From Favolaschia claudopus (Eukaryota > Basidiomycota > Agaricomycetes > Agaricales > Mycenaceae), in NCBI GenBank assembly GCA_037176885.1, contig JAWWNJ010000009.1, forward strand, positions 2,046,001 through 2,110,000: a DNA stretch of 64,000 nt, written 5' to 3'. Shown piece by piece: positions 3,499-29,094 of the stretch. Within the stretch, counting starts at the first letter, position 1, and each line of letters opens with the position of its first letter. Position numbers and translations under genes: made by a program. A model generated the notes under the pieces. The model was not told where the DNA came from and searched no databases. It saw nothing but the letters and a program-made list of their open reading frames with translations.

Positions 3499-3500
3499 CC

Positions 3501-3625
3501 CTGTAGACGTATTACAACGTGCCCCGAGCTCCCCAGTGGTGCACATTACAACGCGCCCTATGTGTTCCTGAGCGTCGGTGCGCATTATAATGCGCATCAG
3601 GGCGCATTATAACGCGCACCCCGCC
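3501..3625. repeat. Outer subterminal repeats, left arm
   Basis: Four related dyads with cores ATTACAA or ATTATAA flanked by GCGC/GTGC bases: CGTATTACAACG, GTGCACATTACAACGCGC, GTGCGCATTATAATGCGC and GGCGCATTATAACGCGC. Variants of the same dyad occur at the inner ends, so they are probably transposase-binding subterminal repeats. Confidence 0.7.
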
Positions 3626-4094
3626 TAGGTTTCTCGGCCTAGGGCGGGCACTTCGGCATCAACGGCAGACCGTTAAAATAGCCGAAACTCATCATTTTTC
3701 ATTGGAATCACCCTCCCCGGACAATACCGTGATTTATTTGGCTTGCCACACTCTTGCCGGCCCCGCATCACAGTATTGACACTGCAACGGGGATTCCCGG
3801 GATTTCGTTACCATCAATCATTGATCTTATACCATATTTGGACACTTGCGGCTTTTCGTCTCTTCAGAATAATGTACAGAATATTGACTAAGGACGTCTC
3901 GTCAACAACCACTCACTATAATACATTGTTTATCTCAACTTGCGGAAAAAACACTGTATTTTGTGACATAAGAAAAGGCATATATTGAAAGACAAAAAAC
4001 ACGGTAGCAAGCGCGCGGACAGACAGACACAGGGCAGATTGCAGACAAGGCACAGGGATATTACGGGAATGAAAGTAAGATACAGTCCATTCAA

Positions 4095-7022
4095 CTAGTC
4101 CTCATCGCTCACTTCGTCCTCCTCTGCTTCTTCATCATTAGCGTCGGGATCAAGTATAGCCTCCAACTCCTCAGCAGTGTACCCCGTATCCATCGCAAAC
4201 GGGTCGAAATCCAGCATATTGTAGTCGCGAGAGATATTCAGAGGTTCCGGTGCGGCAATGTCGACGTCCATTTCGTGGGTGGGAGAAGATGCACGCTCCG
4301 CGGGTGTTACGGCGTTGGCGAGCGGCGGTGGGACAGCTGTGATGACAGGTGGCACTTCGAGTGCCACGGCGGACTGAGGAGCTGAAGGTGCTATAGAGGG
4401 AGGGCTTTCTCGCTCTTCAGCCGTCTCTTCGTCGATCGCCTCCCCCGTAATGGCAGACAGGCCACCCGACCCCGCCGTAGCCTGTTGTGGGTCATCTGCG
4501 GGGGCTTGATTTGCTGATTCACTGGCCCCCGCACCACCGTTCCCTCTTGGCCTATTCGTCATTCTCAGCGCGAGCTCGAATAAATGCAAGAAGACTTTGA
4601 GAAGACTTGCTTACTTTCTCACCGGCCGCGGTTTCGGTCGTTCAGACGCTACTGCTCCTCTTTCTACTCGCTTGCTTGCGCGCGAGTCATCTTCCAACCC
4701 TCGCTTCCTGAAAATATCCACAAAGTTAGCTATTTCTATCGACGATTCGTTCTGGAAGCGGGAAATACGTACCTCTTCTTCGGCCCTGGTTCTTCCGCCA
4801 CCGCCTTCTTTCCACCCCGTTTCCCCTTGGGCGCCTTCTTTGCAGCCACTCGCTCTTGCTCAGCCTCCTCAGCCTCCCTCGCTTTCTCCGCTTCCGCCAG
4901 CTCCATCGTTGCCCGACTCTGCGTCAAGACGTCCGTCAATACCCAGCACACATCATCAGCCAACAGATTCCAGAGCTCGTTCTTCTCCAACGCAGTCTTT
5001 TCAGCTCCAAGTCCGTCTCCAGCGGCGGCGTTACAAATCGATTGTCCCCACCACGCGAGTCCGAGAAGCAGCAAAACAGGGCCGTTTCGCCCTCGCTTGT
5101 GCAGCTTACACCAGTCAAGAACCCAGAAAGCTCGAGCTATGCGGCTGGGTGTCTCCATTTTATCCGCGCTCGTCTCCACCTTGTCCCATCGCGTCCCCGG
5201 CCCAAGGTACTTCCACCACGCTAGTAATTCCTCCCCAAAGTTCGCACTGACAGGATAATCGTCATAGACGCGATGCTCCTTAAACCAATTTGCAAATTCC
5301 TGGGGCCGGACTGCCCCCTTCGGTAGGTTTCCATCGTCCTCGGGGTGCCTGAACGACCACTCATGCTGCACCAGCGCGTCGAGCAGCTTCGTCCAACGCG
5401 GACCCCAATCCTTCCCTGAGAGGTAGGCGTGCGCAAGCACCAAACTCTTTGACCACTCTGACCGATCTACCCCGTCGGCAGCAGGAGGCGTATCCGTAGA
5501 CGGCGCATCAACAGCCGACGCGTTGGCGGGAGGAGGTGCGGAGACGATTGGAGTCGCGGGCGGCGCGCTGGAGCCGGGAGGAGGTGCGTTTGGGACAGTG
5601 GACGTGTTTGGAGTCGCGGGCGGCGCGCTGGAGCCGGGAGGAGGTGCGTTTGGGACGGTGGACGTGTTTGGAGTCGCGGGCGGCGCGCTGGAGCCGGGAG
5701 GAGGTGCGTTTGGGACGGTGGACGTGTTTGGAGTCGCGGGCGGCGCGCTGGAGCCGGGAGGAGGTGCGTTTGGGACGGTGGACGCGTTAGGAGCTGCGGG
5801 CGGCGCGCTGGAGCCGGATCCCGGCAGCGCCTCGTCTTCTATCTGCAACAAGTTATCCAACTCCACCGGCGGCCACGCACGCGCCTCGCATTCCGCTTTG
5901 CCTGATACACGTGTCAGTTTTTCATCCCCTTGTCCACACAAATGGCACTTACTAAATGCAGCTCGACCGTACCGCGTAATCGAATTCTCCATCGCTGTAA
6001 ATCCCTTGTGGTCGAACTGGGCCCATGTCCGCGATGTCTGGAGATTGCTGGTGTCAGAAAACACGCTATCATCTACTGTTAGTCCTAGCTCACGGCATAA
6101 AGAAGTGGACGTACGTGCGCAAGCATACTTCACCTTTCTCTGACCCCACTGGGCCTACAACCAAGATTACGACATGCGATCCAAGACGCTCAGCGAGCGC
6201 GTCGGCCATGGGTATTCCGACTTCAGTCAATGTCTCCATAGCACTAAATTCCAGTCCGTTAATTTGATGTAGATTGTTCTCGCGAAATCGAGACGTACTT
6301 GTGATATTCTTCGGCACTGCCCTCAGGTACCTTCCTCGCTGCCTTCCAATCCGCCATCGCCTGCTCATACATCTCTTCTCCCTTCTTCACAACAGAAGCT
6401 TTGAAGTCGTCACTCTCCGCCTCCCAAGAACTGCGCACAAAGTCCTGAGACATTGAGAACCGGTCACCAGCTGGTACGTTGTCTTTTGCCTTGGCCCAGA
6501 GCTCATCGAATTTCGGTTTGATGCGCTCGGCGTAATGAAGCTTGGAGTAGACGGCAATCGCCGGCTTGCGACGAGGGCGCGCAGATGGGCCGCTCATTGT
6601 TTGCATGGTGCCCAAGATACTCTGAATAGCGCCAGTGTGTACCTTCTTGCCGCGCCAACGGTTCCGAAAATAATTGGATAATTTCTGCTCACCTATGTCA
6701 GCGTACGAATCTATCTGAGTGTAAAAATATGGCTCACCGCACGTAGCTTCTTCTGTATCCCATCACGACGGGTTTTCTCTACCTTGTCGGGGTTTGGTGA
6801 AATATTCGGCGGGTTATCTTCAGGTTTGCCGTCGACATTCTGCGTGAATGGCAAATCGTAACCATAGCGAAGAAGAAACGCGTTTGTCGCGTCGTCGTAG
6901 ACGGTGCCGGGGTCGTCGGCGGCGTCCCGTAGCTGGTCGCGGAACTGCTCCAGCCAATCTTGTTTCTCCCCCACGAAGGCCGACTTTCGTCCTGGAGGTA
7001 TGTTCTTCTTAGCGCGAGCCAT
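4095..7022 (-). CDS. KDZ-element accessory protein F (left arm)
   Basis: This multi-exon gene starts MARAKKNIPPGRKSAFV at 7022 and ends in an acidic tail (EEAEEDEVSDED) at 4095. Visible parts in order are an N-terminal basic segment and helical region; an RNRWRG-type basic motif; a central segment ending YGRAAF-GKAECEARAWPP; a low-complexity Pro/Ala/Ser segment built from a 60-bp tandem repeat; a Trp-rich ordered domain (LAWWKYLGPGTRWDKVE, NGPVLLLLGLAWWGQ); a Lys/Glu/Ala coiled coil with KGKRGGKK; and a disordered acidic C-terminus. I recall this family as a frequent companion of KDZ transposases in agaricomycetes; its function is unknown. Its start is only 80 bp from that of the divergent gene E, so they probably share a promoter. 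Exon joints inside were inferred from GT/AG and frame continuity. Confidence 0.7.
5540..5815. repeat. 60-bp tandem repeat in gene F (left arm)
   Basis: About four and a half units of 60 bp encode a repeating SAPPATPNTSTVPNAPPPGS segment. Copy number and the minor unit differences are the same as in the right arm. Confidence 0.9.
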
Positions 7023-7102
7023 GGTGAGTGGGCGATCGTGGTGAGTGCACAATATATGTTCTTGTTTTTTTTGGGGGCTGTTGACCGTTTCCTCTTTTGA
7101 CC

Positions 7103-7675
7103 ATGTGCAAACGCGAGTTTTGTAAGTGAATTTCAAGACGTATTATCTCCTTTCTTACACCTTTTCTAGCTACTCTCCTTACCGCTGGGAGTAATCGACG
7201 CCCCCGCCGTGTCCGCCGCCATCAGCACTGGCCGAGATACCAACGTGCCTGGCAAAAAGGCGCCAAGATATGCCTTACATATCGTGAGTTTCTGCTTTCA
7301 AGTTCTTTCTGTATATGAGTGAGTCTCAAACAAATCTCAGACGAAGCGGCGGACGACGCTCAAGCCTGGGACGTGATTACCCGGGAGCAGAGCACCTGGG
7401 GTATTGGCGCGTGGGGTACGCCGTGGAAAATTGAAGACGATGACGGCGGATGGAGTGTAGTGTCGACGGCGTGGGCGGAGGCGGAGGACAACGACCCAGG
7501 GAAAGTGTGGGGCGACGGCTGGGAGGAACGTGAGGGCGGGTGGGGAGTGGTAGCGGACAAAGATGGAGGGAAGGTGTGGGGCAACGGTCGGACGCAGCGA
7601 CCCGATGCGGGGGCTGGCAACGGCGACGCGGGGGCTGACAACGCCCACAACGCGAACGGCGCTTCCTCGAAATAA
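7103..7675 (+). CDS. Trp/Gly-rich small protein E of the KDZ element (left arm)
   Basis: Three exons (7103-7121, 7170-7283, 7341-7675) join in frame to 155 residues. The N-terminal half is basic (RRPRRVRRHQHWPRYQRAWQ). The C-terminal half has about ten Trp residues next to Gly, Ser or acidic residues (STWGIGAWGTPW, GGWSVV, KVWGDGW, GGWGVV, KVWGNG), ending in a Gly/Asn/Ala tail. GW/WG-rich disordered segments like this are the hallmark of Argonaute-hook proteins. That is a resemblance only, and the repeats could equally serve protein assembly. The start chosen gives a fully spliced frame and divergence from gene F with an 80-bp gap. It converges with gene D (110 bp between stops). Confidence 0.65.
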
Positions 7676-7784
7676 CTTACTTCGCTTGCGCTCCCTCAGA
7701 TTTTCAATGCATCACGCGTTCTCTGTCTTTGTTTTTGAGGGGAATCATTTGAAAACAAGCAAATTCATCGCAATAAAGCAAAAT

Positions 7785-8361
7785 CTATTTTACGGGCTCG
7801 ACGACACGCTGGAGGCATTGGGCAATGAGACAACAGTAAGCATAAGACCACCCCACACACCTTTTTCACCACCCGCGCTGTGCCTTCGCCTTCCAGTGCA
7901 CGTTTTTTGACGTTCGACCTTCCTCGCCGCAAACGGGCCAGAAGTGCGGCATCCGCATCTATCGCCTTCTGAAGACTCGTATGAATGGAGGGTGAGATCT
8001 TTCATTCAAAACGGCTTCTCACCTGCTGCAGAGCTCGGTTTTTAGCCTGACGCTGTGCCGCTTCCAGCCGACACCTTTTTTTCTGCCGCTCAGCTTCCTT
8101 CTCCGCCTGACGGCGCATCTCCAATGAGCGCGAGGTTGAGGGTCCCGAAATAGGGAGCAGTCTCCCCCCAGAATGCTGTATGCTGACGAATGGTTGCGAG
8201 TGTCCTGGGGCAAACGTGAAGACCTGGGCGCCATCACAAAGCGACGGGGTGGATTCTTCTTCTCCAGCCTCGCGCGCCTCACGCGCGGCCTTGGCTTCCT
8301 TGGCTCGACGGCGGACATCTTGCCAGTATTGGCCGGAGCGCAAGATTTCGGGACGACTCAT
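7785..8361 (-). CDS. Small basic coiled-coil protein D of the KDZ element (left arm)
   Basis: Three exons start MSRPEILRSGQYWQDVRRRA at 8361. The protein has an N-terminal Arg/Ala/Glu-rich helix, a short central segment with a single Cys, then a strongly basic helical region (MRRQAEKEAERQKKRCRLE) followed by ARLRRGRSNVKKRA. In this arm it ends RVVEPVK; a one-base difference gives RVVEP in the right arm. I know no named domain; the composition suggests DNA or RNA binding. Confidence 0.6.
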
Positions 8362-9022
8362 AATGCAGTCAACGGGGAGAAGCGAGAGGTCGTGAAGAGG
8401 AGTGATGGTCAGTCGTCACACCAAATCCATGATGGTGCACTCCCCACGGTCATGATGGTGCACTCACCATTCTGAATCTGAAAACACAGTCTTGCGACCG
8501 CAATACTGCTACCTATACACAGATTTTGTCAATAGTAAGTACCTAGATGCTCGTAGAATGTCTCGTACCTTTATGTAGGCGGAATACGCGGGTATACGGC
8601 AAGAAAGTGAGAAATATAACTTTTCAGAAAATATTCCGTTGAGAACGAAAGATTGAGAATCCAGCCGCAAGAAAAATCAGAAATTGCGCAGAAAGTGTAT
8701 TTGATTCGATTTTGTGATTCTTGTGCAGGTTTGGATCTGTTGGTAAAAGGAAAGCTGAAAGTCGACGAAGACACTCAGACTCACAAGGCAGTTTTGAATG
8801 CGCAACCCAGTTGCATGAGTGAAAAGCTCAAGAAAATCACTAAATTATGCCAATGGCACAGAAAAATCAGAAATAAATCGGAGATTATGCTTTCAAAATC
8901 TCAGACGTCAGCGTCAAGAGGAATTAATTTGCGAGTCAGAACTTTGTGCGTTGAACAATATTTCACTTCGTCTTGGCAATGTTTTGACAGCGGTAAGATT
9001 TGTTCCGGACTACGATTTACAT

Positions 9023-12000
9023 CTACTCGTCGTCGTCATCGACATCCAAGTCCATGTCCTCCTCCTCATCCAGCTCAACCTCCAAAGGCACCAGTTCAGA
9101 TACATCCACCACATGATCCCGCATCACGATCTTGGATCGCTCCCGCACCGCCGCCCATTTCTCCCGCCATGCCAACTCCCACGCATGTTCCCGGGCAGCC
9201 TGTGCTAGAGCATATGCCCGCAGTCCCTCCTGCAACTCCGCTGTAACCGTCGGTGCCCTGAGTTCAGTCCGATCTTCCCACCAGCGCGCTTTCCATGAGC
9301 TAAACTCAAGGACCCGCCGCATTTCTTCGTCCAAGAGAATCAGCTCCTCCCGCCAACGGTCCGCGCGAGCACGCGCTTTAGTCCATTCGACGCGGATATC
9401 TGTTTCAATGTCAATATGTAGGCTTTAATATCAGTTGACGATTATACCTTCATGGAGAGAGCCATCCCCGTTGACGTCAGATGCTCGAACTCCGCCAGAA
9501 TACCAGATCCAGGAAAGTTGCCTGCGCCCCTCACCGGTTTCCAGGCTGAATAGGGTGGTGAGTTCAGCAGGCTCCCCGTATTCATCCACGTCATCCCCGC
9601 TCGCGTCTTCGGGCAATCCCGCCAACAACCGCGCCTTGCGGTTCTCCTCCTTCTCCTGCTCATTCAGCAACCGTTCGTTCATTCCGCGGACATCTTCCTT
9701 CTTGAGCTCCTGAAGTTCCTCCTCCCACGCGCCGGAACCCCGTAAATTAACCAAAGCCTCACGCGCCGCTCGATACCGCGCGCTCGCGGACCGGATGCGC
9801 CGTTCAATTCCATCAAGAAGCTCGCGGGATTTTGTGTACGCACCTTGCCCGGCAATATGTTTGCGCTTGAATTGATGCGCGAATGTTCGGGTGCGTAGGT
9901 TGGAGCGGAGAGAGTGGAGGGCCTCAAGAGCCTGTGCATAGCGCAGCGCGTCTTCTTGTTCAACGAGTGAGGGTGCACAAACGATGGCGCGTGCGCCCGG
10001 AGGTAACGAAGACGGAAGATAGATGGGGATGGTTTCAGGCTGGGCATTGTTGCCGGTTGGCAGGGCGGGTGATTGTTGGGAGAGCCACGTTTTGAGACCA
10101 GGCATATATTTTGCTTGTTCGTCGTGTAAAATCTTCACCTTTGCTAATAGCAAGGTTCTTGAACGCTGAAGTGCGGTGGCTTGGATTGTAGTACGGTTGG
10201 GACGCTTGACTTCGAGTTGTAGCGTTGCTCTGTCAAGGATGAGTGATGGTCGTGTAGGAGAAATATATCACGTACTGCGTTTGTTGAATCTCGATGCCCT
10301 CAATCAAAAAAGGACCCGGTTTGACCGTGAGGGCGGGCGCACCGTCCCGAACCACCGCGGCATGCTCCTCGGCAGCGATGCGGGCCAAAACATCGGTCAT
10401 TGTTTTGGCTATATGGCTGTTAGTGAAGACTTTGAATCAGATATAAGCTTTACTCACCTTCAACCTCGGCATAGTCGTATGGATTTGGGTTTTCATGATC
10501 GATCTCCCAGTCCCGTATCATCTTTTCCCATCGCTCCAAGTCGTGTTCATGGCCGTCACGTAAACCGTTGGTGAAAGATTGGAAGGCGCGGCTGTGAATC
10601 ATAGCTTGAGGGATTGCCAAGACCATCTTTCGTAGTAGCGAATTCCCTGTGCTGGGGTTAGATAACAATGAGATCAAGTGGATTGAATACTTACCCAGAT
10701 CTACTGTCTTTTTCCAATTAAAAAAAGCACACAAGTCGTCGATGGTATCCTCGCGCGCTCCCGGCCCCATAACGGAAATGGAGCGAGCTGCCAAATTCAA
10801 CCATGACCAATTACGTTCGACCCCTTCACCATCGGTCCGTCCGACACCCTTCGTGAAGTTGAATGAGAACGGGCCGTGACATTTCTTGACATGCGGGGGA
10901 AGGTGAAATTTTGGGACTTTGAAAATGACTTGAACCCAGTCGGGGAGTTGAAGGTCGTCCGGCATTTCCTTGGCGCGCTTCCAGAAATTTCGGCACCACT
11001 GACAAGCGATGTCATAGCTTGCGACGATCGTCAGCAAGGTGATACCGAGGAGACTTGAAAACCAGAGAAAATCCATGTTAGAATACCTAGGAATGAACCA
11101 ACAAAGATCAGATATTGTTGACTTGAATGATAAATGTACACACTTTTCTCCCTTTTGCAAGTCACCAGTACCAAGTGGGCGGAACATTTCGTGACGCGAG
11201 CAACTGACAGATCCTATCCCCGTTGCACGTAAGCCCTTGGAGCGTTTGTTGTTGGCTGACCAAAGTGCGGCGAAGGAAACACAGTGACTGATCTGTCAAA
11301 TAGGTGAGTCTCGACCGCTCAAATCAATAGAGGCAAATTACCTCGTCCTCGTCGATGTGCTCAGCCAAAAATTTGAGATACCTGTCGCTCGCAACCATGT
11401 ATGCCCATCCCGGGCCCAAAGTTGGATCTTTTTCACGGGAGGACTGAGCTCGACCCTTCATCTTGAAGTTGGCGTCCTCGGAAACAAACTGACGGTAGAT
11501 CCAGCTAAAAGACGGATCAGCGCCCACATATGGGTTTATGAGATCCGCAACGTACGCGACTTCGGGTGGAGCGTCGTCCCAGCCATCCGGCAGATTGATG
11601 CCTGGATGAGGACACGCACGGCACGGCATAGCCAATTCACCGGGTTTGGTTTCTGCAATGCCGCCGGGGTCATGTCCACGCCCTGCCCGAATACACATTT
11701 GCAGATGCCGATACTCCCGAACCATATTCATGAATTGCTGTAAACGATCCTAAGGATGATGAGCCCAAGACAATAAAGATAATGAAATAAACATACTGGA
11801 ACTTTCTCAAGTCCCGCCGCATTTGTTAATAGAACCAGTGTGTTGTAAAAGTCGTAGCCGGGTACTCGAGCTTGTAAGTTGAGTTTGTGGAAGCGTCGGA
11901 GCAGAGTGAGGGTTGCAGCCGTCGACGGATCTTGATGCGTAGCAGGGAACCAGCCGATATTCAGCAATTGGGTGATTTCAGACGGCGCGCCGGAACAACG

Positions 12001-12739
12001 ACAGAAGTCAACGTTAAGCGAGTGGATGCCGTTGTTGTCAAGCACGACGAAAGGCCGAGAAGTCCCAGAATAGTTGAAGGGGCAATCTTCCCCAGCTGGA
12101 TGTCCGATTTGGTATCGTAAATCGAGGTCTTGCGAGGTCCGCCGCTTGAAATATCCTTCGTCCCATTCCTGCGCAGTAGCGAGTCTTGGTGAGTTGAGGT
12201 GAAATGATTTTAGATAAATCTCGTACCTGGAGGACATGCAAAGGTTGATCACGATGTCTTTCAGTGACACATGCGCGGCAGAGAAGGCGATTGCCGAAGC
12301 AATCTTCACAACGCCAAGTTGGGTCAGAGTAACCGCAGACGACACAACCTTTACACCACCAAGGCCCCCGACCTTTGAGTTGTAAGAGTCCGTCCTTGTA
12401 TTCATCTCGCATTGGGATCCAGGTCTTGACGGGATGATCCTACTCTAAATTACTATCATTGAATATGTACAATTGAAAAGAACGTACCGAATTCTCATAA
12501 CGTTTAGCCTTGACTTTGATTTTGAGTGCGGCGGGACCCTCAGGAAGAACAAGTGGCTGGTCATCGTCTGCAAATCCCATCAAGTGATCATAAATGTCGT
12601 GCTGGGGTTGTTTTTCGGGGGAACGCGGGGGGGCGGGGTGATGTTCTACGCGAACGCGGCGCTTTGATGCACTGGCGGCACTTGATTCATGTTCTGTTGA
12701 GGAATGCTTGTAGACCACTCGCTTTCGTTTCCGGTCCAT
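9023..12739 (-). CDS. CxC2-KDZ family transposase, intact copy (left arm)
   Basis: Ten exons, mirrored in the right arm at 16687-16938, 16987-17199, 17258-17629, 17677-18084, 18134-18282, 18340-18731, 18780-18969, 19019-19151, 19198-19979 and 20028-20410, give about 1088 residues. Order: a disordered basic N-terminus with KRKRVV; the CxC2 cysteine cluster (WWCKGCVVCG, WRCEDCFGNRLLC, ACVTERH, then HPLHV-like QPLHVLQ); a second pair of Cys-containing segments (DFCRCSGAP, PCRACPHPG); then the KDZ RNase H-fold core. I read its acidic residues as D of EDANFK, D of SYDIACQW and E of DGEGVERNW, with GTGDLQKGEKYSNMD, PKFHLPPHV, FTKGVGRTDG and MGPGAREDTIDD as family signatures. The C-terminus is a coiled coil ending in poly-Asp. 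It would catalyse cut-and-paste transposition of the element. All three acidic residues and the frame are kept here. Confidence 0.93.
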
Positions 12740-12861
12740 TGTGAGGTAGGGTAGAGGGGGGTAAAAATTGAAACAAATCACTCGGGGAGTACCGCATGTT
12801 AAAAACAATTTATTGGAAACGAAAAGATCAACAATGTGCGCATATATTCGCCCCTCCATAT

Positions 12862-13646
12862 TCACCCGCGGTCGCGGCGGCGACCGGTCCGCGCAGTCAC
12901 ATTTGGTAACTCCGAGTAAGCGGGCGGATCGTCGTGATCACTGGGTGGGGGGGACGACGGAGGCGGAGATGCGGGCGTGGGCGGACGGAGGATGGGAGAC
13001 GGGGTGCGGGAGAGACTATCTATCCTGAATGTCAAGACGGGGCTGGGGTTGCGAGTCCTTGTGCGGGATTGGCGAGATGGCGTTGACGGTTGGGAACTAC
13101 CTGACAACGCAGCCGTAACGCTTGGCTGCGTGCGACGCCGAGCAGAAGGGGATGAGGAACTAGCGGGGTGGGGCTGAGATCGAGACGGAGTAGGGCTGGT
13201 GACGAGACGAGGCAAGGGAGCGGGTGAATCAGCATCGCGTGGGCGTCGAGGCGAACGCGGAGATGAGGCAAGGGAAGGCGACGACGTGGACGGAGGTGAC
13301 GAGGGAGGTGACGAGGCAGAAACAACGGACGGCGAAGAAGTAGACGGTGTGGGGAGTGGGTGCGGGTGCTCGCCGCGATAACACCCCGCGTGCCAAGCAG
13401 CGAGGAGCTGGGTATAATCCCAGAACTTCTTCACACTGGCTCGTGAGATCCCTGCGACCCGCGCGTTGGCAGACGGCCTGTATCCCGATTCAGACGAAAA
13501 TGGAGGGAGGAAGAAATTGCGCACCAAGACGTATAGATTCCAGGATGTGTCACATAGACCCCACTAACCAGGTACATCGCCTTTCCAGCCAATGTTCTGT
13601 CCGTTTCCCCGGGGTCCCAGTAAACGGGAGGATTGCAACGATTCAT
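12862..13646 (-). CDS. Cauli_VI / RNase H1-N-like protein B of the KDZ element (left arm)
   Basis: Two exons. Residues about 25-75 read AMYLVSGVYVTHPGIYTSW then NARVAGISRASVKKFWDY, the GIYxxW...V.G...xxKxF pattern of the caulimovirus VI / RNase H1 N-terminal fold, which in RNase H1 binds RNA-DNA hybrids and dsRNA. The rest is Ser/Pro-rich and disordered, ending in RTGRRRDRG. It may bind the element's nucleic acids or transcripts. Such small domains are common in agaricomycete transposon-linked ORFs. Confidence 0.75.
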
Positions 13647-13786
13647 GGGCGATGGCGGATGATAAGGAAGAGATCCAATGTTTTGATTTGTTGTCGCAGC
13701 CTTTAAGATGAGAGGATTCACGATTAATATTGCTCGAGATACAGGATGATATGCTTTACTTGAAGATACACGAGAAACAAAAAAGA

Positions 13787-14231
13787 TTACGCAGAAGCAA
13801 GTGCCGCTGCTATCCGCTGTCGGCGCTTCTGGCGTTCCGCTTGGTGTCGGGCCTGGGTGCGGGCTGCCCAGGCCTTGATGGCCAAAAGCTCCCGGTTTCT
13901 GAGTTGATCAGCTGCTGAGTACATACAAGAAATGATAGAAACTTTACTTTTCACGATAACGACGCGCAGAGTCCGCTTTTGCGACCTGCCGAGCTGCCTG
14001 AACGAGGAGGGGGTCGTTCTTCTGCTTTTCCCGAAGAGCCGCCATCCGTTCCCGCTTTTTCGCATTGCGGATTTCTCTGTTACTGATCAATCATCAAAGA
14101 ATAAGCGACGAAGGGTGAGGGGTGAAATGGAGCACATACCGCTCATTATACGCGCGGGAGGCACACCATCTCTTGTACCGGCGAACAGAGTCGGGATTGC
14201 TTTCGTCGACGGCGAATGTCGGTGTGTACAT
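13787..14231 (-). CDS. Small basic helical protein A of the KDZ element (left arm)
   Basis: Three short exons join to about 115 residues: MYTPTFAVDESNPDSVRRYK, then NREIRNAKKRERMAALREKQ, then ADSARRYREKNRELL. Repeated xxRYRxxNRxxxNAKxRERMAxLR blocks predict a long basic helix. I know no named domain; nucleic-acid binding is likely. It is the gene nearest the centre. Confidence 0.65.
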
Positions 14232-14595
14232 TGAGGAATGAGGGTGGGAGAAACGTAGCCGAGAACGAGAGAATGAAGTGCTAGCCGAGGTTGATTGATG
14301 GGCCGGCCCATCATCGAGGAAACCATAAAGAAAGGCTGGAAAGTACGCCCCCCGACGTTGTATCATTGAAGGGCAGGATGGATACCGGAGTACAGCCCCC
14401 CGACGTGGATCATCGAGGGGCGGGAGGAGGGCGGGAGGAGAGAGGTGTGACGTTGTCACATCATCTAACACAATGATATGACGTTGTTGAAAGCGGCAGA
14501 TTTGCCGCAGTTGATTGATAGCGGGGATCACCTTTTCGGGCTTATCCGAAGCTGGATCAGTTGCCGAAGTGCCGTCAACCGGCACTGCGAACAAC

Positions 14596-14828
14596 TCCGA
14601 GGGGCACATTATAATGCGCGATGGTGCACATTATAATGTGCACCGTGGCTCGAGGAGGCCTAGGGCGCATTGTAACGTGCACCCTCTGAGGGGGTCGCAG
14701 TACAGGTACGCACATTATAATGGGCCTCGACCCCCTCAGAGGGTGCACGTTACAATGCGCCCTAGGCCTCCTCGAGCCACGGTGCACATTATAATGTGCA
14801 CCATCGCGCATTATAATGTGCCCCTCGG
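14596..14828. repeat. Inner subterminal repeats of both copies around the centre
   Basis: Matched dyads on either side of the loop include GTGCACATTATAATGTGCAC, GCGCATTATAATGTGC and GTGCACGTTACAATGCGCC, plus one unpaired CACATTATAATGGGCC inside the loop. They share the core of the outer-end repeats, which identifies the centre as a junction of two transposon ends. Confidence 0.75.
14698..14727. other. Single-copy loop of the palindrome
   Basis: Thirty bases lie between GGGGTCG (ending 14697) and CGACCCC (starting 14728). The loop is not self-symmetrical. It starts CAGTACAGGTACGC and carries one ATTATAAT dyad, so it looks like a true transposon terminus kept in one copy only. Confidence 0.8.
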
Positions 14829-15194
14829 AGTTGTTCGCAGTGCCGGTTGACGGCACTTCGGCAACTGATCCAGCTTCGGATAAGCCCGAAAAGGTGATCC
14901 CCGCTATCAATCAACTGCGGCAAATCTGCCGCTTTCAACAACGTCATATCATTGTGTTAGATGATGTGACAACGTCACACCTCTCTCCTCCCGCCCTCCT
15001 CCCGCCCCTCGATGATCCACGTCGGGGGGCTGTACTCCGGTATCCATCCTGCCCTTCAATGATACAACGTCGGGGGGGCGTACTTTCCAGCCTTTCTTTA
15101 TGGTTTCCTCGATGATGGGCCGGCCCATCAATCAACCTCGGCTAGCACTTCATTCTCTCGTTCTCGGCTACGTTTCTCCCACCCTCATTCCTCA

Positions 15195-15639
15195 ATGTAC
15201 ACACCGACATTCGCCGTCGACGAAAGCAATCCCGACTCTGTTCGCCGGTACAAGAGATGGTGTGCCTCCCGCGCGTATAATGAGCGGTATGTGCTCCATT
15301 TCACCCCTCACCCTTCGTCGCTTATTCTTTGATGATTGATCAGTAACAGAGAAATCCGCAATGCGAAAAAGCGGGAACGGATGGCGGCTCTTCGGGAAAA
15401 GCAGAAGAACGACCCCCTCCTCGTTCAGGCAGCTCGGCAGGTCGCAAAAGCGGACTCTGCGCGTCGTTATCGTGAAAAGTAAAGTTTCTATCATTTCTTG
15501 TATGTACTCAGCAGCTGATCAACTCAGAAACCGGGAGCTTTTGGCCATCAAGGCCTGGGCAGCCCGCACCCAGGCCCGACACCAAGCGGAACGCCAGAAG
15601 CGCCGACAGCGGATAGCAGCGGCACTTGCTTCTGCGTAA
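15195..15639 (+). CDS. Small basic helical protein A of the KDZ element (right arm)
   Basis: Identical in sequence to the left-arm copy at 13787-14231. The first intron is GTATGT...GATCAG and the second GTAAAG...CTCAG. The ATG at 15195 is preceded by about 370 bp of non-coding terminal sequence. All exons stay in frame to TAA at 15637. Confidence 0.65.
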
Positions 15640-15779
15640 TCTTTTTTGTTTCTCGTGTATCTTCAAGTAAAGCATATCATCCTGTATCTCGAGCAATATT
15701 AATCGTGAATCCTCTCATCTTAAAGGCTGCGACAACAAATCAAAACATTGGATCTCTTCCTTATCATCCGCCATCGCCC

Positions 15780-16564
15780 ATGAATCGTTGCAATCCTCCC
15801 GTTTACTGGGACCCCGGGGAAACGGACAGAACATTGGCTGGAAAGGCGATGTACCTGGTTAGTGGGGTCTATGTGACACATCCTGGAATCTATACGTCTT
15901 GGTGCGCAATTTCTTCCTCCCTCCATTTTCGTCTGAATCGGGATACAGGCCGTCTGCCAACGCGCGGGTCGCAGGGATCTCACGAGCCAGTGTGAAGAAG
16001 TTCTGGGATTATACCCAGCTCCTCGCTGCTTGGCACGCGGGGTGTTATCGCGGCGAGCACCCGCACCCACTCCCCACACCGTCTACTTCTTCGCCGTCCG
16101 TTGTTTCTGCCTCGTCACCTCCCTCGTCACCTCCGTCCACGTCGTCGCCTTCCCTTGCCTCATCTCCGCGTTCGCCTCGACGCCCACGCGATGCTGATTC
16201 ACCCGCTCCCTTGCCTCGTCTCGTCACCAGCCCTACTCCGTCTCGATCTCAGCCCCACCCCGCTAGTTCCTCATCCCCTTCTGCTCGGCGTCGCACGCAG
16301 CCAAGCGTTACGGCTGCGTTGTCAGGTAGTTCCCAACCGTCAACGCCATCTCGCCAATCCCGCACAAGGACTCGCAACCCCAGCCCCGTCTTGACATTCA
16401 GGATAGATAGTCTCTCCCGCACCCCGTCTCCCATCCTCCGTCCGCCCACGCCCGCATCTCCGCCTCCGTCGTCCCCCCCACCCAGTGATCACGACGATCC
16501 GCCCGCTTACTCGGAGTTACCAAATGTGACTGCGCGGACCGGTCGCCGCCGCGACCGCGGGTGA
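15780..16564 (+). CDS. Cauli_VI / RNase H1-N-like protein B of the KDZ element (right arm)
   Basis: Identical to the left-arm copy. Exon 1 begins MNRCNPPVYWDPGETDRTLA and ends in the split Trp codon of YTSW; the intron is GTGCGC...TACAG. Downstream is a long Ser/Pro-rich tail. The A-B-C genes run in one direction, separated by 120-140 bp. Confidence 0.75.
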
Positions 16565-16686
16565 ATATGGAGGGGCGAATATATGCGCACATTGTTGATC
16601 TTTTCGTTTCCAATAAATTGTTTTTAACATGCGGTACTCCCCGAGTGATTTGTTTCAATTTTTACCCCCCTCTACCCTACCTCACA

Positions 16687-19600
16687 ATGGACCGGAAACG
16701 AAAGCGAGTGGTCTACAAGCATTCCTCAACAGAACATGAATCAAGTGCCGCCAGTGCATCAAAGCGCCGCGTTCGCGTAGAACATCACCCCGCCCCCCCG
16801 CGTTCCCCCGAAAAACAACCCCAGCACGACATTTATGATCACTTGATGGGATTTGCAGACGATGACCAGCCACTTGTTCTTCCTGAGGGTCCCGCCGCAC
16901 TCAAAATCAAAGTCAAGGCTAAACGTTATGAGAATTCGGTACGTTCTTTTCAATTGTACATATTCAATGATAGTAATTTAGAGTAGGATCATCCCGTCAA
17001 GACCTGGATCCCAATGCGAGATGAATACAAGGACGGACTCTTACAACTCAAAGGTCGGGGGCCTTGGTGGTGTAAAGGTTGTGTCGTCTGCGGTTACTCT
17101 GACCCAACTTGGCGTTGTGAAGATTGCTTCGGCAATCGCCTTCTCTGCCGCGCATGTGTCACTGAAAGACATCGTGATCAACCTTTGCATGTCCTCCAGG
17201 TACGAGATTTATCTAAAATCATTTCACCTCAACTCACCAAGACTCGCTACTGCGCAGGAATGGGACGAAGGATATTTCAAGCGGCGGACCTCGCAAGACC
17301 TCGATTTACGATACCAAATCGGACATCCAGCTGGGGAAGATTGCCCCTTCAACTATTCTGGGACTTCTCGGCCTTTCGTCGTGCTTGACAACAACGGCAT
17401 CCACTCGCTTAACGTTGACTTCTGTCGTTGTTCCGGCGCGCCGTCTGAAATCACCCAATTGCTGAATATCGGCTGGTTCCCTGCTACGCATCAAGATCCG
17501 TCGACGGCTGCAACCCTCACTCTGCTCCGACGCTTCCACAAACTCAACTTACAAGCTCGAGTACCCGGCTACGACTTTTACAACACACTGGTTCTATTAA
17601 CAAATGCGGCGGGACTTGAGAAAGTTCCAGTATGTTTATTTCATTATCTTTATTGTCTTGGGCTCATCATCCTTAGGATCGTTTACAGCAATTCATGAAT
17701 ATGGTTCGGGAGTATCGGCATCTGCAAATGTGTATTCGGGCAGGGCGTGGACATGACCCCGGCGGCATTGCAGAAACCAAACCCGGTGAATTGGCTATGC
17801 CGTGCCGTGCGTGTCCTCATCCAGGCATCAATCTGCCGGATGGCTGGGACGACGCTCCACCCGAAGTCGCGTACGTTGCGGATCTCATAAACCCATATGT
17901 GGGCGCTGATCCGTCTTTTAGCTGGATCTACCGTCAGTTTGTTTCCGAGGACGCCAACTTCAAGATGAAGGGTCGAGCTCAGTCCTCCCGTGAAAAAGAT
18001 CCAACTTTGGGCCCGGGATGGGCATACATGGTTGCGAGCGACAGGTATCTCAAATTTTTGGCTGAGCACATCGACGAGGACGAGGTAATTTGCCTCTATT
18101 GATTTGAGCGGTCGAGACTCACCTATTTGACAGATCAGTCACTGTGTTTCCTTCGCCGCACTTTGGTCAGCCAACAACAAACGCTCCAAGGGCTTACGTG
18201 CAACGGGGATAGGATCTGTCAGTTGCTCGCGTCACGAAATGTTCCGCCCACTTGGTACTGGTGACTTGCAAAAGGGAGAAAAGTGTGTACATTTATCATT
18301 CAAGTCAACAATATCTGATCTTTGTTGGTTCATTCCTAGGTATTCTAACATGGATTTTCTCTGGTTTTCAAGTCTCCTCGGTATCACCTTGCTGACGATC
18401 GTCGCAAGCTATGACATCGCTTGTCAGTGGTGCCGAAATTTCTGGAAGCGCGCCAAGGAAATGCCGGACGACCTTCAACTCCCCGACTGGGTTCAAGTCA
18501 TTTTCAAAGTCCCAAAATTTCACCTTCCCCCGCATGTCAAGAAATGTCACGGCCCGTTCTCATTCAACTTCACGAAGGGTGTCGGACGGACCGATGGTGA
18601 AGGGGTCGAACGTAATTGGTCATGGTTGAATTTGGCAGCTCGCTCCATTTCCGTTATGGGGCCGGGAGCGCGCGAGGATACCATCGACGACTTGTGTGCT
18701 TTTTTTAATTGGAAAAAGACAGTAGATCTGGGTAAGTATTCAATCCACTTGATCTCATTGTTATCTAACCCCAGCACAGGGAATTCGCTACTACGAAAGA
18801 TGGTCTTGGCAATCCCTCAAGCTATGATTCACAGCCGCGCCTTCCAATCTTTCACCAACGGTTTACGTGACGGCCATGAACACGACTTGGAGCGATGGGG
18901 AAAAGATGATACGGGACTGGGAGATCGATCATGAAAACCCAAATCCATACGACTATGCCGAGGTTGAAGGTGAGTAAAGCTTATATCTGATTCAAAGTCT
19001 TCACTAACAGCCATATAGCCAAAACAATGACCGATGTTTTGGCCCGCATCGCTGCCGAGGAGCATGCCGCGGTGGTTCGGGACGGTGCGCCCGCCCTCAC
19101 GGTCAAACCGGGTCCTTTTTTGATTGAGGGCATCGAGATTCAACAAACGCAGTACGTGATATATTTCTCCTACACGACCATCACTCATCCTTGACAGAGC
19201 AACGCTACAACTCGAAGTCAAGCGTCCCAACCGTACTACAATCCAAGCCACCGCACTTCAGCGTTCAAGAACCTTGCTATTAGCAAAGGTGAAGATTTTA
19301 CACGACGAACAAGCAAAATATATGCCTGGTCTCAAAACGTGGCTCTCCCAACAATCACCCGCCCTGCCAACCGGCAACAATGCCCAGCCTGAAACCATCC
19401 CCATCTATCTTCCGTCTTCGTTACCTCCGGGCGCACGCGCCATCGTTTGTGCACCCTCACTCGTTGAACAAGAAGACGCGCTGCGCTATGCACAGGCTCT
19501 TGAGGCCCTCCACTCTCTCCGCTCCAACCTACGCACCCGAACATTCGCGCATCAATTCAAGCGCAAACATATTGCCGGGCAAGGTGCGTACACAAAATCC

Positions 19601-20410
19601 CGCGAGCTTCTTGATGGAATTGAACGGCGCATCCGGTCCGCGAGCGCGCGGTATCGAGCGGCGCGTGAGGCTTTGGTTAATTTACGGGGTTCCGGCGCGT
19701 GGGAGGAGGAACTTCAGGAGCTCAAGAAGGAAGATGTCCGCGGAATGAACGAACGGTTGCTGAATGAGCAGGAGAAGGAGGAGAACCGCAAGGCGCGGTT
19801 GTTGGCGGGATTGCCCGAAGACGCGAGCGGGGATGACGTGGATGAATACGGGGAGCCTGCTGAACTCACCACCCTATTCAGCCTGGAAACCGGTGAGGGG
19901 CGCAGGCAACTTTCCTGGATCTGGTATTCTGGCGGAGTTCGAGCATCTGACGTCAACGGGGATGGCTCTCTCCATGAAGGTATAATCGTCAACTGATATT
20001 AAAGCCTACATATTGACATTGAAACAGATATCCGCGTCGAATGGACTAAAGCGCGTGCTCGCGCGGACCGTTGGCGGGAGGAGCTGATTCTCTTGGACGA
20101 AGAAATGCGGCGGGTCCTTGAGTTTAGCTCATGGAAAGCGCGCTGGTGGGAAGATCGGACTGAACTCAGGGCACCGACGGTTACAGCGGAGTTGCAGGAG
20201 GGACTGCGGGCATATGCTCTAGCACAGGCTGCCCGGGAACATGCGTGGGAGTTGGCATGGCGGGAGAAATGGGCGGCGGTGCGGGAGCGATCCAAGATCG
20301 TGATGCGGGATCATGTGGTGGATGTATCTGAACTGGTGCCTTTGGAGGTTGAGCTGGATGAGGAGGAGGACATGGACTTGGATGTCGATGACGATGACGA
20401 CGACGAGTAG
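16687..20410 (+). pseudogene. CxC2-KDZ transposase with a one-base frameshift (right arm)
   Basis: Same ten-exon structure as the left copy, and equally clear CxC2 and KDZ signatures. In exon 7 the run GATGGGGAAAAG near 18898 has one G more than the left arm, which shifts the frame and stops translation after ERWGKDDTGLGDRS. The break falls after the catalytic core (DANF, YDIACQW, GVERNW all upstream), so a C-terminally shortened protein of roughly 600 residues could still be made. A 6-bp GAC-type expansion lengthens the acidic tail near 20400. The indel is in a homopolymer, so a consensus error is possible. Confidence 0.8.
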
Positions 20411-21073
20411 ATGTAAATCGTAGTCCGGAACAAATCTTACCGCTGTCAAAACATTGCCAAGACGAAGTGAAATATTGTTCAACGCACAAAGTTCTGACTC
20501 GCAAATTAATTCCTCTTGACGCTGACGTCTGAGATTTTGAAAGCATAATCTCCGATTTATTTCTGATTTTTCTGTGCCATTGGCATAATTTAGTGATTTT
20601 CTTGAGCTTTTCACTCATGCAACTGGGTTGCGCATTCAAAACTGCCTTGTGAGTCTGAGTGTCTTCGTCGACTTTCAGCTTTCCTTTTACCAACAGATCC
20701 AAACCTGCACAAGAATCACAAAATCGAATCAAATACACTTTCTGCGCAATTTCTGATTTTTCTTGCGGCTGGATTCTCAATCTTTCGTTCTCAACGGAAT
20801 ATTTTCTGAAAAGTTATATTTCTCACTTTCTTGCCGTATACCCGCGTATTCCGCCTACATAAAGGTACGAGACATTCTACGAGCATCTAGGTACTTACTA
20901 TTGACAAAATCTGTGTATAGGTAGCAGTATTGCGGTCGCAAGACTGTGTTTTCAGATTCAGAATGGTGAGTGCACCATCATGACCGTGGGGAGTGCACCA
21001 TCATGGATTTGGTGTGTGACGACTGACCATCACTCCTCTTCACGACCTCTCGCTTCTCCCCGTTGACTGCATT

Positions 21074-21644
21074 ATGAGTCGTCCCGAAATCTTGCGCTCC
21101 GGCCAATACTGGCAAGATGTCCGCCGTCGAGCCAAGGAAGCCAAGGCCGCGCGTGAGGCGCGCGAGGCTGGAGAAGAAGAATCCACCCCGTCGCTTTGTG
21201 ATGGCGCCCAGGTCTTCACGTTTGCCCCAGGACACTCGCAACCATTCGTCAGCATACAGCATTCTGGGGGGAGACTGCTCCCTATTTCGGGACCCTCAAC
21301 CTCGCGCTCATTGGAGATGCGCCGTCAGGCGGAGAAGGAAGCTGAGCGGCAGAAAAAAAGGTGTCGGCTGGAAGCGGCACAGCGTCAGGCTAAAAACCGA
21401 GCTCTGCAGCAGGTGAGAAGCCGTTTTGAATGAAAGATCTCACCCTCCATTCATACGAGTCTTCAGAAGGCGATAGATGCGGATGCCGCACTTCTGGCCC
21501 GTTTGCGGCGAGGAAGGTCGAACGTCAAAAAACGTGCACTGGAAGGCGAAGGCACAGCGCGGGTGGTGAAAAAGGTGTGTGGGGTGGTCTTATGCTTACT
21601 GTTGTCTCATTGCCCAATGCCTCCAGCGTGTCGTCGAGCCGTAA
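21074..21644 (+). CDS. Small basic coiled-coil protein D of the KDZ element (right arm)
   Basis: Same as the left-arm gene through the last exon, where one base fewer (GAGCCGTAA) ends the protein RVVEP, two residues shorter than in the left arm. Exon 1 is 21074-21412; exon 2 begins AAGGCGATAGATGCG at 21467. Confidence 0.6.
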
Positions 21645-21758
21645 AATAGATTTTGCTTTATTGCGATGAATTTGCTTGTTTTCAAATGATTCCCCTCAAA
21701 AACAAAGACAGAGAACGCGTGATGCATTGAAAATCTGAGGGAGCGCAAGCGAAGTAAG

Positions 21759-22331
21759 TTATTTCGAGGAAGCGCCGTTCGCGTTGTGGGCGTTGTCAGC
21801 CCCCGCGTCGCCGTTGCCAGCCCCCGCATCGGGTCGCTGCGTCCGACCGTTGCCCCACACCTTCCCTCCATCTTTGTCCGCTACCACTCCCCACCCGCCC
21901 TCACGTTCCTCCCAGCCGTCGCCCCACACTTTCCCTGGGTCGTTGTCCTCCGCCTCCGCCCACGCCGTCGACACTACACTCCATCCGCCGTCATCGTCTT
22001 CAATTTTCCACGGCGTACCCCACGCGCCAATACCCCAGGTGCTCTGCTCCCGGGTAATCACGTCCCAGGCTTGAGCGTCGTCCGCCGCTTCGTCTGAGAT
22101 TTGTTTGAGACTCACTCATATACAGAAAGAACTTGAAAGCAGAAACTCACGATATGTAAGGCATATCTTGGCGCCTTTTTGCCAGGCACGTTGGTATCTC
22201 GGCCAGTGCTGATGGCGGCGGACACGGCGGGGGCGTCGATTACTCCCAGCGGTAAGGAGAGTAGCTAGAAAAGGTGTAAGAAAGGAGATAATACGTCTTG
22301 AAATTCACTTACAAAACTCGCGTTTGCACAT
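21759..22331 (-). CDS. Trp/Gly-rich small protein E of the KDZ element (right arm)
   Basis: Exact mirror of 7103-7675, with the same three exons and the same 155-residue product containing WG/GW repeats. Its ATG lies 80 bp from the ATG of gene F, back to back. Confidence 0.65.
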
Positions 22332-22411
22332 GGTCAAAAGAGGAAACGGTCAACAGCCCCCAAAAAAAACAAGAACATATATTGTGCACTCACCACGATC
22401 GCCCACTCACC

Positions 22412-25339
22412 ATGGCTCGCGCTAAGAAGAACATACCTCCAGGACGAAAGTCGGCCTTCGTGGGGGAGAAACAAGATTGGCTGGAGCAGTTCCGCGACCA
22501 GCTACGGGACGCCGCCGACGACCCCGGCACCGTCTACGACGACGCGACAAACGCGTTTCTTCTTCGCTATGGTTACGATTTGCCATTCACGCAGAATGTC
22601 GACGGCAAACCTGAAGATAACCCGCCGAATATTTCACCAAACCCCGACAAGGTAGAGAAAACCCGTCGTGATGGGATACAGAAGAAGCTACGTGCGGTGA
22701 GCCATATTTTTACACTCAGATAGATTCGTACGCTGACATAGGTGAGCAGAAATTATCCAATTATTTTCGGAACCGTTGGCGCGGCAAGAAGGTACACACT
22801 GGCGCTATTCAGAGTATCTTGGGCACCATGCAAACAATGAGCGGCCCATCTGCGCGCCCTCGTCGCAAGCCGGCGATTGCCGTCTACTCCAAGCTTCATT
22901 ACGCCGAGCGCATCAAACCGAAATTCGATGAGCTCTGGGCCAAGGCAAAAGACAACGTACCAGCTGGTGACCGGTTCTCAATGTCTCAGGACTTTGTGCG
23001 CAGTTCTTGGGAGGCGGAGAGTGACGACTTCAAAGCTTCTGTTGTGAAGAAGGGAGAAGAGATGTATGAGCAGGCGATGGCGGATTGGAAGGCAGCGAGG
23101 AAGGTACCTGAGGGCAGTGCCGAAGAATATCACAAGTACGTCTCGATTTCGCGAGAACAATCTACATCAAATTAACGGACTGGAATTTAGTGCTATGGAG
23201 ACATTGACTGAAGTCGGAATACCCATGGCCGACGCGCTCGCTGAGCGTCTTGGATCGCATGTCGTAATCTTGGTTGTAGGCCCAGTGGGGTCAGAGAAAG
23301 GTGAAGTATGCTTGCGCACGTACGTCCACTTCTTTATGCCGTGAGCTAGGACTAACAGTAGATGATAGCGTGTTTTCTGACACCAGCAATCTCCAGACAT
23401 CGCGGACATGGGCCCAGTTCGACCACAAGGGATTTACAGCGATGGAGAATTCGATTACGCGGTACGGTCGAGCTGCATTTAGTAAGTGCCATTTGTGTGG
23501 ACAAGGGGATGAAAAACTGACACGTGTATCAGGCAAAGCGGAATGCGAGGCGCGTGCGTGGCCGCCGGTGGAGTTGGATAACTTGTTGCAGATAGAAGAC
23601 GAGGCGCTGCCGGGATCCGGCTCCAGCGCGCCGCCCGCAGCTCCTAACGCGTCCACCGTCCCAAACGCACCTCCTCCCGGCTCCAGCGCGCCGCCCGCGA
23701 CTCCAAACACGTCCACCGTCCCAAACGCACCTCCTCCCGGCTCCAGCGCGCCGCCCGCGACTCCAAACACGTCCACCGTCCCAAACGCACCTCCTCCCGG
23801 CTCCAGCGCGCCGCCCGCGACTCCAAACACGTCCACTGTCCCAAACGCACCTCCTCCCGGCTCCAGCGCGCCGCCCGCGACTCCAATCGTCTCCGCACCT
23901 CCTCCCGCCAACGCGTCGGCTGTTGATGCGCCGTCTACGGATACGCCTCCTGCTGCCGACGGGGTAGATCGGTCAGAGTGGTCAAAGAGTTTGGTGCTTG
24001 CGCACGCCTACCTCTCAGGGAAGGATTGGGGTCCGCGTTGGACGAAGCTGCTAGACGCGCTGGTGCAGCATGAGTGGTCGTTCAGGCACCCCGAGGACGA
24101 TGGAAACCTACCGAAGGGGGCAGTCCGGCCCCAGGAATTTGCAAATTGGTTTAAGGAGCATCGCGTCTATGACGATTATCCTGTCAGTGCGAACTTTGGG
24201 GAGGAATTACTAGCGTGGTGGAAGTACCTTGGGCCGGGGACGCGATGGGACAAGGTGGAGACGAGCGCGGATAAAATGGAGACACCCAGCCGCATAGCTC
24301 GAGCTTTCTGGGTTCTTGACTGGTGTAAGCTGCACAAGCGAGGGCGAAACGGCCCTGTTTTGCTGCTTCTCGGACTCGCGTGGTGGGGACAATCGATTTG
24401 TAACGCCGCCGCTGGAGACGGACTTGGAGCTGAAAAGACTGCGTTGGAGAAGAACGAGCTCTGGAATCTGTTGGCTGATGATGTGTGCTGGGTATTGACG
24501 GACGTCTTGACGCAGAGTCGGGCAACGATGGAGCTGGCGGAAGCGGAGAAAGCGAGGGAGGCTGAGGAGGCTGAGCAAGAGCGAGTGGCTGCAAAGAAGG
24601 CGCCCAAGGGGAAACGGGGTGGAAAGAAGGCGGTGGCGGAAGAACCAGGGCCGAAGAAGAGGTACGTATTTCCCGCTTCCAGAACGAATCGTCGATAGAA
24701 ATAGCTAACTTTGTGGATATTTTCAGGAAGCGAGGGTTGGAAGATGACTCGCGCGCAAGCAAGCGAGTAGAAAGAGGAGCAGTAGCGTCTGAACGACCGA
24801 AACCGCGGCCGGTGAGAAAGTAAGCAAGTCTTCTCAAAGTCTTCTTGCATTTATTCGAGCTCGCGCTGAGAATGACGAATAGGCCAAGAGGGAACGGTGG
24901 TGCGGGGGCCAGTGAATCAGCAAATCAAGCCCCCGCAGATGACCCACAACAGGCTACGGCGGGGTCGGGTGGCCTGTCTGCCATTACGGGGGAGGCGATC
25001 GACGAAGAGACGGCTGAAGAGCGAGAAAGCCCTCCCTCTATAGCACCTTCAGCTCCTCAGTCCGCCGTGGCACTCGAAGTGCCACCTGTCATCACAGCTG
25101 TCCCACCGCCGCTCGCCAACGCCGTAACACCCGCGGAGCGTGCATCTTCTCCCACCCACGAAATGGACGTCGACATTGCCGCACCGGAACCTCTGAATAT
25201 CTCTCGCGACTACAATATGCTGGATTTCGACCCGTTTGCGATGGATACGGGGTACACTGCTGAGGAGTTGGAGGCTATACTTGATCCCGACGCTAATGAT
25301 GAAGAAGCAGAGGAGGACGAAGTGAGCGATGAGGACTAG
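22412..25339 (+). CDS. KDZ-element accessory protein F (right arm)
   Basis: Mirror of 4095-7022 with the same translation. The exon chain runs MARAKKNIPPG...KKLRA | KLSNYFRNRWRG... | AMETLTEVGIP... | VFSDTSNLQTS... | GKAECEARAWPP..., through the tandem repeat and Trp-rich domain to KKR | KRGLEDDSRAS..., and a last exon PRGNGGAGASES...DED. The last joint uses GTAAGC...GAATAG. It is the outermost gene of the element, 600 bp from its terminus. Confidence 0.7.
23620..23895. repeat. 60-bp tandem repeat in gene F (right arm)
   Basis: Same number of units and the same unit variants as 5540-5815 in the left arm. Minisatellites change copy number quickly, so this supports a recent origin of the second arm. 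Confidence 0.9.
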
Positions 25340-25809
25340 TTGAATGGACTGTATCTTACTTTCATTCCCGTAATATCCCTGTGCCTTGTCTGCAATCTGC
25401 CCTGTGTCTGTCTGTCCGCGCGCTTGCTACCGTGTTTTTTGTCTTTCAATATATGCCTTTTCTTATGTCACAAAATACAGTGTTTTTTCCGCAAGTTGAG
25501 ATAAACAATGTATTATAGTGAGTGGTTGTTGACGAGACGTCCTTAGTCAATATTCTGTACATTATTCTGAAGAGACGAAAAGCCGCAAGTGTCCAAATAT
25601 GGTATAAGATCAATGATTGATGGTAACGAAATCCCGGGAATCCCCGTTGCAGTGTCAATACTGTGATGCGGGGCCGGCAAGAGTGTGGCAAGCCAAATAA
25701 ATCACGGTATTGTCCGGGGAGGGTGATTCCAATGAAAAATGATGAGTTTCGGCTATTTTAACGGTCTGCCGTTGATGCCGAAGTGCCCGCCCTAGGCCGA
25801 GAAACCTAG

Positions 25810-25935
25810 GCGGGGTGCGCGTTATAATGCGCCCTGATGCGCATTATAATGCGCACCGACGCTCAGGAACACATAGGGCGCGTTGTAATGTGCACCACTG
25901 GGGAGCTCGGGGCACGTTGTAATACGTCTACAGGG
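25810..25935. repeat. Outer subterminal repeats, right arm
   Basis: Mirror of 3501-3625: GTGCGCGTTATAATGCGC, TGCGCATTATAATGCGCACC, GGCGCGTTGTAATGTGCACC and GGCACGTTGTAATACG. Confidence 0.7.
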
Positions 25936-25943
25936 AGAGCTCT
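25936..25943. repeat. Right target-site duplication candidate (8 bp)
   Basis: AGAGCTCT directly follows the terminus CTACAGGG; it matches GGAGCTCT at 3491-3498 in 7 of 8 positions. Confidence 0.5.
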
Positions 25944-26045
25944 TTCCGTGTGTTACATGAATCGTTGCTTTCTTCTCTTCACCCTTTCGACAAGCACTCC
26001 TCCAGCTCATCGCCTCTTTCACGTAGGCATCGTTCCTGAAGATCT
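25944..26045 (+). promoter_or_regulatory. Right flank: 3' part of a host promoter module or LTR end
   Basis: CTCTTTCCGTGTGTTACATG aligns well with the fourth palindrome of the modules (CTCTTTTGCGTGTATTACAT), and GTTCCTGAAGATC follows about 80 bp later as in the modules at 34902 and 48113. The same TGTTACA could instead be the end of the LTR begun at 2303. A gene of the clustered family starts at 26171. Confidence 0.5.
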
Positions 26046-26170
26046 CGCTAAATTTCCTCTTGTTCTGCTTTTGGATTGCCTTGTATTCCTCGAAATGCCT
26101 TCATTTTTATACTGTTTCGTTCCATACGACGGGTACGAACGCTTTCTCCATAGATTCTCCAACAGCGCCG

Positions 26171-28447: not shown

Positions 28448-28495
<48 letters not shown>

Positions 28496-28944: not shown

Positions 28945-29094
28945 GGTTTAGAGGAACTTCTGGGTGGGGAGCTTTTGACCGTATTAAATCTACGCAAATA
29001 ACAGAGGGCAATTCCGTATCTGGAACAAGGGCGGTTTGTTCATGCTGTGAAATACAGCTGATTTGATATTTGTACAAAGACCGGAATGATACTA

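Follow-up and report, generated by a model that had tools for sequence, protein, structure and literature searches.

How two near-identical KDZ transposons of 11.2 kb came to lie tail to tail as a 22.4-kb palindrome in one contig of Favolaschia claudopus, and whether the pair is one mobile unit, the scar of a rearrangement or an error of assembly, is the question raised by this locus. We analysed a window of 64,000 nucleotides (C9:2046001-2110000) within an assembly of 264.6 Mb and 460 contigs. C9 is the contig of the window, while C10, C26, C37, C48, C62, C97, C159 and similar labels are other contigs of the same assembly; positions given without a contig are those of the window. Because similarity searches of the genome score the best candidates only (one of them missed a copy on C48 that was later found by a 30-mer pattern), the absence of further copies or junctions is not to be taken as proof.

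Comparison of the window with itself returned a single inverted match from 3488 to 25946 at 99.8% identity, with the arms forming one chain (I1 to I6) and the innermost arms lying 30 nt apart. The two copies, A (3492 to 14697, plus strand) and B (14698 to 25942, minus strand), pair across 11.2 kb with one substitution (5381/24053) and five indels of 1, 2, 6, 1 and 1 bp, 11 bp in total. An earlier, sequence-only reading had described a large inverted repeat with a 30-bp loop and paired coordinates summing to 29425-29434; our analysis recovered the same repeat and the same sums, from 29434 (3492+25942) down to 29425 (14697+14728). Chance is ruled out for 11.2-kb arms of such identity, and the palindrome is confirmed as a real feature of the assembly.

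The true ends of the element were set from relatives on C26 and C159, found by similarity search, and on C48, found by searching for the 30-mers of the element's ends. All three relatives start with GAGCTC, finish with CTGTACTGTTG and are bounded by exact 7-bp target duplications, namely GTCGTAT on C26, TGACAAT on C48 and CCCCGGC on C159. The outer edges of the palindrome do coincide with transposon termini, as had been claimed, though at 3492 and 25942 and not at 3499 and 25935: the earlier edges were 7 bp too far in because GAGCTC is element sequence in each of the three relatives. Both left termini are intact (GAGCTCTCCC in A; at 25942 in B). Next to them, the slot for the target duplication of A is TGTGAAG (3485 to 3491, plus strand), inside a long terminal repeat (LTR), and that of B, read toward B, is ACGGAAA (25943 to 25949, minus strand). 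These slots are equal at 3 of 7 positions, and no matching duplication surrounds the pair. With different 7-mers beside the outer termini, a single insertion of the whole 22.4 kb is improbable. The proposal of a single transposon with 11-kb terminal repeats is not supported by the same comparison, given the exact duplications of all three relatives; its outer edges are indeed termini, but the terminal inverted repeats (TIRs) belong to each element and are short: in a self-comparison, the TIR-like stretch measures about 100 bp, is 78% identical and starts about 20 bp inward of the left terminus.

According to the domain searches, A, of which B is the mirror, carries the KDZ and CxC2/CxC1 domains of fungal KDZ (Kyakuja-Dileera-Zisupton) transposons. 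On the minus strand of A, an ORF at 10450-11187, with codon-phase bias, encodes the C-terminal part of the KDZ transposase domain (PF18758, 8.4e-34, exceeding the curated cut-off); its counterpart in B, a near-identical mirror, lies at 18239-18977. On the same strand, the ORF at 11324-11731 matches the N-terminal part of the domain at 4.9e-4, under the curated cut-off, and the ORF at 11728-12405 encodes the CxC2 (6.5e-35) and CxC1 (1e-6) cysteine clusters that accompany KDZ transposases. Apart from these, a Pfam scan of 14 of the 31 listed ORFs gave a single B-box-like match, below the cut-off, and no TET/JBP. As a partial check on the six genes per element counted earlier, strong codon-phase bias was seen in 13 of 38 segments of 300 bp when the element was compared with the 77%-identical copy on C48. 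In a protein search with one KDZ ORF, the best organism-named match among the best 120 of 301 was from Mycena olivaceomarginata, at 66% identity, which suggests a Mycena-like host. One ORF of the element contains a tandem repeat of 60 bp (5548-5817 and 23617-23886) that encodes a proline/alanine-rich repeat.

The transposase domain, the cysteine cluster, the TIR-like ends and, in the relatives, the 7-bp duplications are all features of KDZ elements. The length of about 11 kb, the TIRs and the short target duplications are shared with KDZ1 of Cryptococcus, as the consulted parts of PMC12810828 describe it. Two Kyakuja families of Laccaria, in the consulted parts of PMC12730594, are reported to have 7-bp duplications, like the three relatives here, and 5'-CA..TG-3' termini without TIRs; the present ends, in contrast, read GAGCTC..GTTG (GA..TG), with about 100 bp of inverted similarity at 78%. 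What sets the locus apart from fungal KDZ transposons is that two copies are joined through their right ends, and among the papers listed by our literature searches, no title or abstract opening contained a description of a KDZ palindrome.

Exact matches to the left-end 30-mer number four, of which two lie in the window, one on C26 and one on C48; a fifth site, on C97, has 3 mismatches. The right-end 30-mer is exact in the centre of the window only, and the sole other sites found, on C26 and C48, each differ from it by 2 mismatches; the same pattern revealed no other right-hand neighbour of A or B in the assembly. The elements on C26 and C48 are 99.75% identical to one another and 77% identical to B, and the pieces on C97 are 74-79% identical to B, with one 35-bp piece at 89%. 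Judged by these comparisons, A and B are the only members of their subfamily found, and one of them was probably derived from the other, because the copies on C26/C48 (77%) and C97 (74-79%) are distant and no others were found. The copy at C26:359747-378076, 99.75% identical to that on C48, holds an insertion of about 7 kb and has a target duplication of its own. A stretch at 7091-7690 of A, with its mirror in B, matches the copies on C26 and C48 at 87-97% identity, although the element averages 77%; it shows 48-76% identity to C159 and no codon-phase bias. Either non-coding sequence is conserved in this stretch or an exchange took place recently.

Read against the complete ends of the relatives, the right ends of A and B meet at 14697/14698, a join with neither microhomology nor filler. 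A lacks the last 33 bp of its right end and B the last 3 bp (CAA in plus-strand reading). The unpaired centre (14698 to 14727, minus strand) corresponds to the terminal 30 bp of B, the equivalent part of A being absent, and shares 28 of 30 bases with the right tips of the relatives on C26 and C48; by this match, the apparent 30-bp loop is the right tip of B itself. The description of two complete transposons consequently gives way to two elements with trimmed right ends. What stands of it are the KDZ domains, the inverted orientation, the 30-bp centre and the edges at termini; the completeness of the elements and the single unit do not.

On the left, A interrupts a retrotransposon within its 3' LTR; the first LTR of this retrotransposon begins at C9:2032109. 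The LTR is 1,790 bp long, as determined by comparison with the copy on C10, and A cuts it after its first 1,189 bp (2303 to 3491, plus strand). A natural end of the LTR at 3491 was ruled out: all ten other copies that were examined as loci, and the 3' LTR on C10, run on past the point of interruption (nine of the ten came from 45 listed matches and one was added; one is the element's own 5' LTR). The remaining 601 bp were not found in the right flank up to C9:2120000. A pattern search for a KDZ right end followed by the LTR remainder gave three places with 2 mismatches, none genuine, two being ordinary LTR variants and one an unrelated stretch. Because the slots are unequal and the LTR remainder is absent from the right side, the sequences that now border the palindrome at left and at right were, as far as can be told from them, probably not adjacent earlier.

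To explain this arrangement, we lean towards a fusion in which two KDZ elements, either sister copies or local copies, were cut at their right ends and then joined there, with loss of the intervening DNA. A recently active KDZ transposon would have been present as two near-identical copies of opposite orientation, which arose either on the sister chromatids from a single element or by a short-distance hop; from either origin, the near identity of A and B would follow with no extra assumption. Both right ends would have been cut at or beside the transposon tips by transposase, and cellular end joining would have fused right end to right end, losing 33 bp and 3 bp and deleting all the DNA that formerly lay between them. 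The product would be a tail-to-tail dimer, with the LTR retrotransposon still next to one of its outer left ends, on the left, and single-copy sequence next to the other, on the right. We infer transposase cuts and end joining because the joins lie 3 and 33 bp from the right tips and lack microhomology; in an element of 11.2 kb, a random join would rarely fall as near as 33 bp to the right terminus. Its termini, its trimmed right ends, its unequal slots, the LTR remainder missing at right and the failure to find another right end of A or B type give the sequence the look of a scar, left by a transposition that broke and was rejoined, and not that of one giant mobile unit.

Three observations go against the fusion. 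The loss of 33 bp from A is unlike a clean transposase cut, our search for a reciprocal product or an empty site found none, and the differences between A and B are mostly indels in short repeats, which sequencing or polishing can also make. When 25943-29443 was sought elsewhere, it returned only its last 349 bp, as part of an inverted repeat in the window, and short weak matches. That repeat is 529 bp long and 99.4% identical, lies in the right flank (29095-29623 and 51579-52107), and its part at 29095-29443 has matches elsewhere of at most 82 bits.

A precedent comes from maize Ac/Ds, where, in the consulted parts of PMC3744419 and PMC4270019, cut termini of neighbouring or sister elements give inverted duplications and deletions, and internal junctions are end-joined with or without microhomology. 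The present locus resembles these alternative transpositions (sister-chromatid, reversed-ends and Composite Insertions) in its breakpoints at transposon ends, its inverted duplication, its presumed deletion and its presumably end-joined internal junction. It differs from them, as far as these parts of the two papers go, in that the maize events involve one 5' and one 3' end whereas two right ends are fused here, and in that the maize breakpoints carry 8-bp target duplications whereas the outer slots differ here. Compared with an Ac/Ds-type Composite Insertion, the blunt internal junction is present and the outer duplication is absent. The copy-number changes of Candida albicans likewise concern long repeats in a fungal genome, "inverted repeat" being a frequent term of the paper (PMC7371428); here, unlike there, two DNA transposons make up the arms.

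We consider it unlikely, though a serious alternative, that a fold-back read or a join between haplotypes linked two loci, each with a normal KDZ insertion. The assembly seems to contain about three haplotypes: the 22 matches to the RNA polymerase largest-subunit domain form, in our own grouping, four sets with three places apiece, the fourth of them weaker, which suggests about three haplotypes as far as these genes can tell. The stretches that we took as allelic are 92-98% identical in five comparisons, and the inverted homology of the flanks, at 77-96%, partly overlaps this range. Two right-flank pieces align in plus orientation on C37 and a left-flank piece in minus orientation, as for a fold-back, but a third right-flank piece is also in minus orientation there, and the orientations on C62 are mixed. 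Against an artefact, moreover, the join lies 3 and 33 bp from transposon ends, which is not a random position, and the 30-mer pattern search found no displaced A- or B-type right end elsewhere. A single-molecule fold-back would also mirror the adjacent flanks, and these are unlike except for one 180-bp match at 66%; the near-perfect mirror stops at the left termini and does not run into the flank.

The wider flanks bear on the same alternative. The statement that they are not mirrored is correct for the left LTR element and, apart from the 180-bp match, for the nearest 8.5 kb on the right, but further out there are inverted blocks at 77-96%. Comparison of C9:2016001-2032108 with C9:2071943-2120000 gave 31 matches, 29 of them inverted, and the larger blocks showed 86%, 92-96% and 77-90% identity. 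One block, at 34413-37900, is the inverted homologue of C9:2024013-2027578 in the left flank (86%), and another, at 59252-62500, that of C9:2015422-2019325 (92-96%). Among the best 39 of 76 candidates, no contig except C9 matched C9:2016001-2026000 above 77%. The inverted blocks could represent alleles that ended up in a single contig, or else a local inverted duplication of greater age. Four outer marker pieces each have one main place on C9, C37 and C62 (among the best 39 of 366 candidates), as if C9 were one haplotype, which argues against a join; a 153-bp part of the left marker piece has a second match on each of the three contigs, at 76-78%. The marker pieces lie within about 13 kb on C37 and about 17 kb on C62, and on C9 over 100 kb separates the left one from the rest. 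About 100 kb of C9, from 2011752 to about 2112461 and including the whole window, seems to be absent from C37 and C62, as judged from the parts of this region that were searched.

Some further features of the right flank were observed. Gene-like blocks at 34413-37900 and 47717-48125 are repeated locally, and related clusters lie on C10/C101 and C45/C77/C83. The ORFs at 36159-37016 and 52134-52895 had no match in the Pfam scan. The ORF at 62377-63015 carries T5orf172 and MUG113 domains, which we take to be GIY-YIG-like.

It is improbable that snap-back replication from a broken right end copied the element into its own mirror image. This would account for the near-identical arms and the short unpaired centre, but copying should have continued into the left flank, whereas the mirror ends at the left terminus, apart from 3 agreeing bases among the 4 that follow, and 14697/14698 offers no microhomology for priming. 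More improbable still is a palindromic dimer that arose beforehand and entered the site whole, as a 22.4-kb transposon with a left end on either side: the two outer ends, being intact left termini, could in principle be mobilised, and GAGCTCT stands in direct orientation at the edges first proposed (3492-3498 and 25937-25943), but its GAGCTC belongs to the element in each of the three relatives, which rules it out as the duplication of such a unit, the true slots TGTGAAG and ACGGAAA mismatch, and the far side lacks the LTR remainder. An insertion of B within the right end of A was ruled out, the 33 bp missing from A not being found beyond 25942.

The locus illustrates how the target duplication, as learned from relatives, can tell a giant transposon from the scar of a rearrangement. 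If real, the locus would be a young, base-level case of a KDZ pair joining to itself and deleting the DNA between, and a palindrome with 11-kb arms should be a hot spot of breakage. We propose, only tentatively, that KDZ transposase may pair and cut two like right ends of sister or neighbouring copies, giving rise to tail-to-tail fusions, deletions and palindromes in fungal chromosomes. If this is true, a dimer with two intact, outward-facing left ends would be a macrotransposon that breaks chromosomes or can move.
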